A stretch of 64,000 bases of DNA, from contig CACZKE010000001.1 in the NCBI GenBank assembly GCA_902781705.1, forward strand, positions 62,001 to 126,000. The letters run 5' to 3'. The DNA comes from an uncultured Bacteroidia bacterium. Lineage in GTDB: Bacteria; Bacteroidota; Bacteroidia; Bacteroidales; UBA932. The first letter of the stretch is position 1; every line of letters starts with the position of its first letter. A model generated the notes under the pieces. That model ran no database searches. It saw only the letters and a program-made list of their open reading frames with translations, and was not told the DNA's origin. Both the position numbers and the translations under genes were made by a program. Shown here in pieces: positions 62,471-64,000 of this stretch.

Positions 62471-62501
62471 TTTGATTTTTATGTAAAATCGCCTATATTT
62501 G
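62471..62501 (+). promoter_or_regulatory. Promoter of the structured RNA / sensor leader (TTTG, 19 nt, TATATTTG)
   Basis: TTTG at 62471-62474 and TATATTTG at 62494-62501, a full consensus match. The expected transcription start is near 62506-62509, about 185 nt before the next coding start. Confidence 0.82.
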
Positions 62502-62506
62502 TACAA

Positions 62507-62685
62507 ATATTGACGAAAACAAGTCATCTATATGCTTCCTGATAAGTCCTGAACGGGAAAACTAGGGAATATTTCATTACTAAAGGACAGGAAGCTTTTC
62601 CGGAGGCTCTATGCTGGGCATAGTCGCCTCTCCTTTAGTGGTCCCCCTAGGCCATCTCGTTGAGCTCCGGCTGTGCTCTTTTTTT
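62507..62685 (+). ncRNA. Candidate structured RNA (6S/Bacteroidales-1-like or riboregulatory leader)
   Basis: About 179 nt bounded by a consensus promoter and a T7 tract (62679-62685) after a small GAGC/GCTC stem (62662-62665/62675-62678). Nested helices: CTAGGG (62562-62567) with CCCTAG (62645-62650); ACTAAAGGA (62579-62587) with TCCTTTAGT (62631-62639); hairpins 62590-62601 and 62603-62630 (GAGGC, CTATGC-TGG-GCATAG, GCCTC). A competing helix pairs GCTTCCTG (62534-62541) with CAGGAAGC (62588-62595). Promoter-to-terminator layout and size suit a 6S-type or the described Bacteroidales-1 RNA; the closeness to the next ATG (6 nt after the T tract) equally suits an attenuator. Confidence 0.55.
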
Positions 62686-62691
62686 GAGGCC

Positions 62692-64000
62692 ATGCCGAGA
62701 GTTTATTGGATTCTGCTACTGTTTCTGTGGACCTGTGTGTCTGCCGGTTGCCGCCCTGATCAAGAGCGGGAGGAGGCTTTGTCCGCCTTGGAGGAGACCG
62801 CCGCACTGGACCGTGCCGACGTGTTGATAACCAATCCGGACTGCCTGGCCCCCGCCTTGTCCTATATCCCCCGGCACGGGACTGACAAACAGAAGATGAT
62901 GCTATGGTATTACCTGGGCAGGATCCAGACCAACGGGGGCGATTTCGGGGCGGCCTCGCTCTCTTTCGAACGGGCGGAAGCGTTGGAGGATATTGTCGGA
63001 GACCCTCACCTTACAGGGTTGGTCAACCGGGCTTACGCGGGCGTATTCAATTGGATGTACGACGTCCGGGAAGACTCTCTCCATCTGCTCAAGGCAATCA
63101 GGGCTTTCGATGCGGCGGGGGATACCCTCCATGCCGCCGAAGCGGGCCTTCGGCTCGCCGTGGCCTTCTGCAGCGACCGGGAATGGGACAAGTCTTATGC
63201 GCAGTTCATGCGTGTCCGGTCCATGGCCATGAAACATGACATGCTGGCCTTTCGCTATCGGTTGTGCCTGGCCTCTTTCCTGGCGACCGCGCCCGATGAG
63301 TACGATGACCTGGATGCGCTGACCCTCTTCGAGGAGGCACGTACCTTCAATCCTTCCTTACCTGTAGACAATGCGATCGATTACGGGTATATCCTGGCGC
63401 TTTCCGGCCGGGAGAACGAGGGATTGCATATCTGGGACAGTCTGGAGCGTGCACATCCGGAAGGGCTCATGAATCTGGATTACAAGCGCTACCGCTACCT
63501 GGAACAGAAAGGTCGCTTCGAGGAGGCCTCGTTTTATCTGGACCGCGTCGTCCAGAGGCACGATTCCGTTCTCCTGGCCCGGATCTCCGACCTGGCCGGC
63601 AATTCGCAGCGGAACTACCTGGAGACAATGGCCAGGGAAGAACGGGAGGAGAGGGAGCGGGCGCGGAACCTGCAGGCGGGCATCCTGTCCGGGAGCATCT
63701 TCCTGATCATTACCATGCTTCTGGCCGGCATGGCTGTCTATCAGAACGAGCGATCCAAGCGTCTGGAGTCCCAGCATGTCCTGGAAGACACCAGGCGGCT
63801 GGTCTCCCGCCTGGAGGATGCGGAGAAGAAATACCTGATGCGGATCCATACGCTCAGCCGCGATGTCCGCAATACCCGGTCGGCCCTGGATGCGGCCCGG
63901 TCGGATTATCTGTACCTTTTCCGGAGCAGTTACCGCAAACTCGGCGAACTCTTCGAAGCCCGCTACTACGCGAAATCGGAAGTCTCCTTGAGCAAGAAGG
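62692..64000 (+). CDS. TPR-like lipoprotein with TM helix and coiled coil, 3' end beyond the window
   Basis: Open for 436 codons to the window edge. A lipoprotein-type signal (VSAGC, Cys20) is followed by ~290 residues of helical, TPR-like repeats (for example LGRIQTNGGDFGAASLSFERAE and GRFEEASFYLDRVV), a TM helix at about 329-351 (ILSGSIFLIITMLLAGMAVY) and a coiled coil (RLESQHVLEDTRRLVSRLED). This layout resembles Bacteroidota TPR sensor proteins whose cytoplasmic C-terminus often carries a helix-turn-helix or kinase part; that part is not visible. A possible structured leader or ncRNA ends 6 nt upstream. Confidence 0.75.
   Translation, partial: MPRVYWILLLFLWTCVSAGCRPDQEREEALSALEETAALDRADVLITNPDCLAPALSYIPRHGTDKQKMMLWYYLGRIQTNGGDFGAASLSFERAEALEDIVGDPHLTGLVNRAYAGVFNWMYDVREDSLHLLKAIRAFDAAGDTLHAAEAGLRLAVAFCSDREWDKSYAQFMRVRSMAMKHDMLAFRYRLCLASFLATAPDEYDDLDALTLFEEARTFNPSLPVDNAIDYGYILALSGRENEGLHIWDSLERAHPEGLMNLDYKRYRYLEQKGRFEEASFYLDRVVQRHDSVLLARISDLAGNSQRNYLETMAREEREERERARNLQAGILSGSIFLIITMLLAGMAVYQNERSKRLESQHVLEDTRRLVSRLEDAEKKYLMRIHTLSRDVRNTRSALDAARSDYLYLFRSSYRKLGELFEARYYAKSEVSLSKK

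Follow-up and report, generated by a model that had tools for sequence, protein, structure and literature searches.

A probable riboswitch-like transcription attenuator with mutually exclusive pairings in 5′ leaders of diverse Bacteroidota genes

Upstream of a TPR-TM gene in the DNA analysed here (the window, 64,000 nucleotides from an uncultured Bacteroidia bacterium) lies an RNA that we regard, with good confidence, as a member of a cis-acting, riboswitch-like class of transcription attenuators standing before diverse genes of Bacteroidota. It is made of four strands that can pair as 1:2, 2:3 or 3:4, and the use of strand 3 in both makes 2:3 and 3:4 mutually exclusive. Strand 4 leads into a U-tract, which gives 3:4 the look of an intrinsic terminator. 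As read from the sequence, then, a terminator-like stem and a U-run precede the gene, and a competing stem also makes use of strand 3.

The features of the leader in the window are given in Table 1. The promoter, helices, T7 tract and ATG described by the first-pass annotation are all read directly in the sequence. It had further proposed that an 8-bp helix (GCTTCCTG with CAGGAAGC) excludes a 9-bp helix (ACTAAAGGA with TCCTTTAGT). Both pair perfectly and compete as nested helices; they share no bases, however, and a pseudoknot could hold the two at once. A stronger conflict had been overlooked: GGGCAUAGUCG is also complementary to CGGCUGUGCUC, over 11 of 11 base pairs including G-U, 8 of them Watson-Crick, which 1 of 1000 shuffled leaders equalled. 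Strand 3 is thus the 3′ arm of P4 in 2:3 or the 5′ arm of the terminator-like stem in 3:4. The T7 tract is followed by GAGGCC and then by the ATG, as read directly. The first two bases of H1 in the window are common to P1, and P5 shares position 62639 with P3. By eye, P0 has letters that differ on both sides in L088, L089 and L057, and it was not found in L079 and L082.

Table 1 Features of the leader and the downstream gene in the window (positions are those of the window).
Feature	Positions	Strand	Details
Bacteroidota-type promoter	62471-62501	+	TTTG 62471-62474, 19-nt spacer, TATATTTG 62494-62501
P0, 5′ hairpin near the presumed transcript start	62511-62526	+	UGAC/GUCA; assigned by eye
Strand 1	62534-62541	+	GCUUCCUG (DNA GCTTCCTG); partner is strand 2; from pairing tests
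P1, closing helix	62552-62661	+	AACGGGA 62552-62558 with UCUCGUU 62655-62661
H1 hairpin	62557-62575	+	GAAA/UUUC; by eye in the window; loop is the 5′ strand of P2
P2, loop-loop helix	62562-62650	+	CUAGGG 62562-62567 (H1 loop) with CCCUAG 62645-62650 (P5 loop)
P3	62579-62639	+	ACUAAAGGA 62579-62587 with UCCUUUAGU 62631-62639
Strand 2	62588-62614	+	CAGGAAGC 62588-62595, and 5′ arm of P4 (GAGGC 62603-62607, CUAUGC 62609-62614)
Strand 3	62616-62630	+	GGGCAUAGUCG 62616-62626, and GCCUC 62626-62630
P5 hairpin	62639-62654	+	UGG 62639-62641 / CCA 62652-62654; by eye in the window; loop is the 3′ strand of P2
Strand 4	62668-62685	+	CGGCUGUGCUC 62668-62678, then U7 62679-62685
Downstream gene	62692-64000, end at G000:C1:126299 (L046:4300)	+	lipoprotein-like signal, TPR-like repeats, TM, C-terminal HTH-like domain

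A blastn search with the leader against 60 relatives returned the window itself as sole match. Among 29 relatives compared at the flanks of the neighbouring PASTA gene, the TPR gene and the RNA were found together in L017 only, and the covariance model R3 had no match in the other 28. In a congener (G003) the same TPR gene adjoins the PASTA gene, and the elements of the window's leader recur there with compensatory changes. A search with the TPR protein added two genomes (G088, G173) and a distant one (G190, locus L057); in the named genomes it found no related loci. Model R1 matched four of 29 relatives' loci (L050-L078) at E ≤ 0.001, and few members of the TPR family are accompanied by the RNA.

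Covariance models widened the family. Among 400 congeneric genomes the first, built from four leaders, matched 16 when E up to 0.05 was allowed, our own included; for 11 of these E was 1e-5 or lower. At E ≤ 0.01 the second matched 11 of the 299 genomes searched in the family; members in other genera stand before unrelated genes. With the third, 51 of the order's 388 genomes gave a match, representing 40 of 206 genera, as did 13 of 395 genomes of the phylum (11 of 171 genera), our own genome being counted in both searches; some carriers have several copies. As a control, 60 other loci of relatives had no R3 match below E 0.08. Several weak matches were rejected as chance after reading: L090-L094 from the first model (E 0.006-0.05), L100 and L101 from the second (E 0.005-0.008), and one at L046:4300 (E 0.007). 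An exact 21-mer from the 5′ part of the RNA occurs in at least 120 stretches of the named-genome collection, whose carriers include the cultured Alistipes sp. dk3624 and Dysgonomonas sp. 216. At 69 of the 81 such sites in the 80 loci listed R3 has a match on the same strand, the 21-mer pattern overlapping the first ~15 positions of that model, and the same 80 loci hold three further R3 matches away from these sites. The 121 members counted below are not independent: judged by length, L097 and L174, like L099 and L161, look like the same contigs, and some genomes contribute many copies.

Individual copies deserve description. Our own genome holds a second, weaker one (G000:C7:92079-92253, L132; E 4e-4); 201 nt separate it from a following ORF that resembles a TonB-receptor-type protein by sequence. 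Two copies stand in tandem before one gene in L104 (264-396 and 468-619) and in L108 (1501-1635 and 1284-1440, minus strand). L096 and L102 belong to the same genome and share 86% identity across 226 nt that reach past the U-tract; different ORFs follow them. R3 also matches plasmids of Rhizosphaericola mali and Chryseobacterium (L255 2493-2633, L256 2494-2625), where hypothetical genes follow closely, at 2705 and at 2682, respectively, and two viral contigs (L253 9363-9508, L254 12320-12471).

The covariation that the first-pass annotation had suggested looking for among homologous loci is massive. Alignment A9 was made with MAFFT, free of structure, from 82 rows: 81 that similarity thinning retained among the 111 U-tract members, and the window, which thinning had dropped and which was added back; the 10 members lacking a U-tract were excluded. 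With helix columns chosen from one row (L121), 88.2% of the cells of the named structure are paired, against 71.3% after shuffling. Double-change cells number 524 versus 174.5 shuffled (0/500 shuffles as high), and slid partners give at most 164. RNAalifold predicts 28 pairs on A9, 23 of them with at least one compensatory double change. Its fold contains P1, P2 and P4; H1, P3 and P5 are absent, since a nested fold with P2 cannot show them all.

The individual helices agree with this picture. The columns of P1 covary, with up to 47 double changes in one pair, and all six aligned pairs of P2, which joins the H1 loop (GAAA..UUUC) to the P5 loop (GGGU..ACCU), have double changes. H1 is 93.0% paired over the 82 members; P5 is 92.2% paired in rows with letters, the window row being gapped in these columns. 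P3 (helix 6 of A9) reaches 78.1%, with double changes in five of six pairs, and P4, the 2:3 helix, 92.9%. The first G of H1 (column 38) co-varies with two columns, 54 and 227, and therefore has two partners in different states or takes part in a triple. The closing helix P1 and the loop-loop helix P2 enclose 2:3. Judged by these patterns, the 5′ leaders hold a conserved domain of tertiary type, in which P1 and P2 covary and H1 and P5 persist.

The alternative pairings are conserved as well. In A9 the 3:4 helix is 95.2% paired, and 1:2 and 3:4 jointly show 47 double-change cells versus 23.2 shuffled (0/500). Further pair types in the alternative helices are not unusual (24 versus 21.7; 73/500 shuffles as high). 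The column count of 1:2 is weak (59.7% paired), in part from alignment shifts; the best 1:2 helix averages 9 bp in 82 members, with 0/200 swaps as good. In partner swaps among 55 thinned members, none of 300 reached the true value for 1:2, for 2:3 or for 3:4. An end-to-end 1:4 helix finds weak support in the same kind of comparison, with 2/300 swaps as good and at least 6 bp in 37 of the 55; the '1:linker' swap test overlaps P1 and was left unused. Strand 4 gives a similar result by other routes. In nine hand-chosen divergent members, the true 3:4 total was reached by 4 of 362880 partner permutations with G-U and by 10 of 362880 with Watson-Crick pairs only, the true order included in both counts; because these strands were hand-picked for pairing, with hand-set registers, the swap test alone carries weight for this set. 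When the 11-nt strand 4 was typed by hand in 12 members and partners were sought freely, the best was the 3′ arm of the apical hairpin (0-23 of 1000 shuffles as good). An automatic test of the 9 nt that immediately precede the U-tract placed the start of their best partner 42-72 nt upstream in 103 of 111 members; taken singly, only 56 of the 111 reached p ≤ 0.05.

In majority-type members such as L121, by eye, the 1:2 pairing uses bases that P3 also needs; in the window, unlike L121, the two helices are adjacent. Of the 111 members that have a U-tract, 94 carry a run of at least four U (4-8 U); by rule, the tract is missing in 10 of 121. The latter include L079-L083, with UCUU instead, which are five of the seven other members that precede a TPR-type gene; in this group of degenerate U-run, control may be exerted on translation. 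The loop of the 3:4 stem measures 41 nt in the window, which is unusual for an intrinsic terminator. Among nested folds, the minimum free energy of the window RNA is -54.5 kcal/mol with 2:3 and -47.7 kcal/mol with 1:2 and 3:4 forced; as 2:3 comes energetically first, termination would need kinetics or a factor. A conserved leader peptide was considered and set aside: an ATG at strand 1, present in the window as well as in L085 and L086, is absent from L087 and L079.

The position of the RNA relative to promoters and genes is equally regular. The -7 box TAnnTTTG occurs within 160 nt upstream in 103 of 121 members, against 14.7 expected from mononucleotide shuffles. For the 62 members that have a U-tract and 40-330 nt from model end to ATG, it lies upstream of the RNA in 46 (3.6 expected) and between U-tract and ATG in 4 (3.9 expected, hence chance), so the gene seems to depend on the leader promoter and on read-through. 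Where 450 nt or more of downstream sequence were available (101 members), the nearest ORF on that side shares the strand of the RNA in 95, is on the opposite strand in 3 and is lacking in 3; upstream ORFs show no bias (49 versus 44 by strand, 21 with none). For the window row the ORF caller picked the wrong ORF, which leaves the strand unaffected. Start codons cluster near 60 nt past the model end. A GACATA motif is present upstream in 46 of 121 members (5.6 expected), and in 45 of these its distance to the model start is 8-49 nt; as it lies downstream of the -7 box in 40 of 41 members with both, it is probably inside the transcript.

The genes behind the RNA are diverse. Under a simple rule, the N-terminus resembles a signal or TM segment in 70 of the 92 distinct proteins encoded downstream, compared with 136 of 509 control ORFs of the same loci, which are unannotated and may include spurious frames. 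Pfam searches with 79 of the 81 thinned downstream proteins matched 57 families. The 25 of these that were listed are scattered, with many surface types (LRR, BACON, Fib_succ_major, SprB, OmpA, Por secretion tail) and no common pathway or metabolic theme. The TPR-TM protein of the window gave a sub-threshold TPR match and a weak BT3442-family match in protein family scans. A fold search with the HTH-like protein returned nothing below E 0.6 and weak LuxR-type matches at E 1.4 and up, and the label 'HTH' is tentative for that reason. Control of this TPR-TM sensor, as first proposed, is too narrow a scope: the RNA is not bound to that gene and stands before many unrelated ones phylum-wide. In L086-L089 it lies directly before short proteins with only the C-terminal domain of the TPR-TM regulator, and in L097, L099, L116 and L131 it is followed by small proteins that look XRE-like HTH by eye.

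By energy alone the window RNA is unremarkable, with a modest gain over shuffles (z -1.99, 7/200 shuffles as good; z -1.79, 13/200 in a second run), while four relatives reach z -3.5 to -4.7 with 0/200 shuffles as good. No Rfam 15 family matched over the RNA at gathering score in the window and 20 member loci; lax searches gave no more than matches far under threshold over the RNA, and none in 16 loci at E ≤ 1. Matches to mir-485, PyrC leader, MIR821 and Leu_leader, far under their cut-offs, were rejected. Energy and known families leave the question undecided; it is the comparative evidence that decides. The class is new relative to Rfam 15. In the searched text of open-access papers we found no description of it (PMC2864571, PMC7366714, PMC8040213 and PMC9723704 included). 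The 2021 human-microbiome catalogue holds thousands of candidates (PMC8040213); the class may be partly listed there without a name.

We propose the following mechanism. The leader would be transcribed ahead of the gene, and its strands would pair either as 2:3, in the P1-closed domain locked by P2 (H1 with P5), or as 1:2 together with 3:4. Formed directly before the U-tract, 3:4 would serve as intrinsic terminator and end transcription ahead of the gene; with strand 3 occupied by 2:3, RNA polymerase would read through. The folded P1/P2 domain would serve as sensor, and a signal (a small molecule, a protein or another RNA) that stabilises or destabilises it would set the balance. Because the folding energies place the antiterminated state first, we leave the on/off direction of the signal uncommitted. 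Going further, the kissing-loop sensor and the four-strand terminator switch may together form an undescribed class that serves a phylum-wide regulon of surface and secreted proteins with one shared signal, an extension that we put forward tentatively and would stop just short of expecting.

The leader could instead act mainly on translation, the 3:4 stem and a following hairpin hiding the start region with no termination. L079-L083, in which an inverted repeat comes after the UCUU and closely precedes the ATG, would suit such a role, as would the ATG at no more than ~25 nt from strand 4 in the window, L079, L080, L083, L085, L086 and L087. The 4-8 U of most members, and starts that cluster too far from the model end for simple occlusion, make this reading unlikely. 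That the RNA stems from a free-standing small RNA gene that acts in trans, has a promoter and a terminator of its own and only happens to sit upstream of other genes, we consider quite improbable. It has a promoter, most members end in a terminator-like 3′ end, and the 86% identical pair L096 and L102 is followed by different ORFs; against this, the orientation bias is confined to the downstream side, promoters are not enriched between RNA and ATG, tandem copies stand ahead of one gene in L104 and L108, and alternative pairings against the terminator strand are conserved.

A mobile repeat or recombination cassette, whose structure would serve DNA exchange between surface-gene loci and not RNA control, we hold highly unlikely. 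Many copies in some genomes (e.g. Ca. Symbiothrix), the two plasmid-borne members, the L098 copy downstream of a tRNA gene and the 86% identical pair would be expected of such an element; yet the helices stay paired, G-U included, as the sequence diverges, and the 5′ promoter and 3′ U-run are kept. The first-pass annotation had also considered a 6S-like RNA or Bacteroidales-1. A long imperfect rod in the minimum free energy fold, a similar length and weak RF01693 matches in congeners are in its favour. The Rfam search that it suggested was run: 6S, 6S-Flavo and Bacteroidales-1 are absent at the window locus in cmscan up to E 10, and our own genome has no match to RF00013, RF01685 or RF01693 at E ≤ 0.001 with Infernal's stricter filters. 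The congener matches (L009-L012, L014 and L015, around 1501-1686), some with a closing stem and a T-run by eye, are at other loci, and R3 matched none of the six when these were scanned. With multiple copies per genome and the strong cis orientation bias also set against it, this identity carries negligible weight with us. Its other proposal, an undescribed riboswitch or attenuator, draws support at the level of sequence from the conserved alternative pairing into the U-tract, the position, the orientation and the promoter placement.

Among gut bacteria the Bacteroidota are a major group, and little of their cis-regulatory RNA has been charted. Here one RNA class recurs in tens of genera, often multicopy, before unrelated and mostly cell-surface genes. 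If the transcription attenuator reading is true, it would add an unrecognised level to the control of what Bacteroidota show to host, phage and neighbours, and the alignment and the model of mutually exclusive pairings are ready for testing.

Among known RNAs of these bacteria, Bacteroidales-1 (RF01693) is likewise a Bacteroidales RNA of ~180 nt; it differs in having no match here and separate loci in congeners. DUF805 RNA (RF03081), which we take to be a Bacteroidota leader of Rfam type Cis-reg, is a distinct family of 68 positions. In L105 (1378-1446, minus strand) it lies ~54 nt downstream of our RNA, two leader RNAs in series. The candidate HMP2_4205 is described as mostly from Bacteroidetes, near TPR genes and terminator-like (Fremin and Bhatt 2021, PMC8040213); by that description it resembles our RNA in all three respects and differs in being palindromic and 132 bp long.

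Closer parallels are found in mechanism. Purine, lysine and cobalamin riboswitches have loop-loop tertiary helices, and the RNA described here similarly has a P1-closed junction and two hairpins with pairing loops (P2), joined to a terminator switch; it differs from them in having neither an Rfam riboswitch match nor a metabolic gene theme, and its ligand role is putative only. The trp leader is a four-strand transcription attenuator. Unlike it, our RNA has no conserved leader peptide that we could see, its strands are separated by a large conserved domain that includes a loop-loop helix, and the genes, among the families listed, share no pathway. What the two have in common is the mutually exclusive set 1:2, 2:3 and 3:4, with 3:4 ahead of a U-tract.
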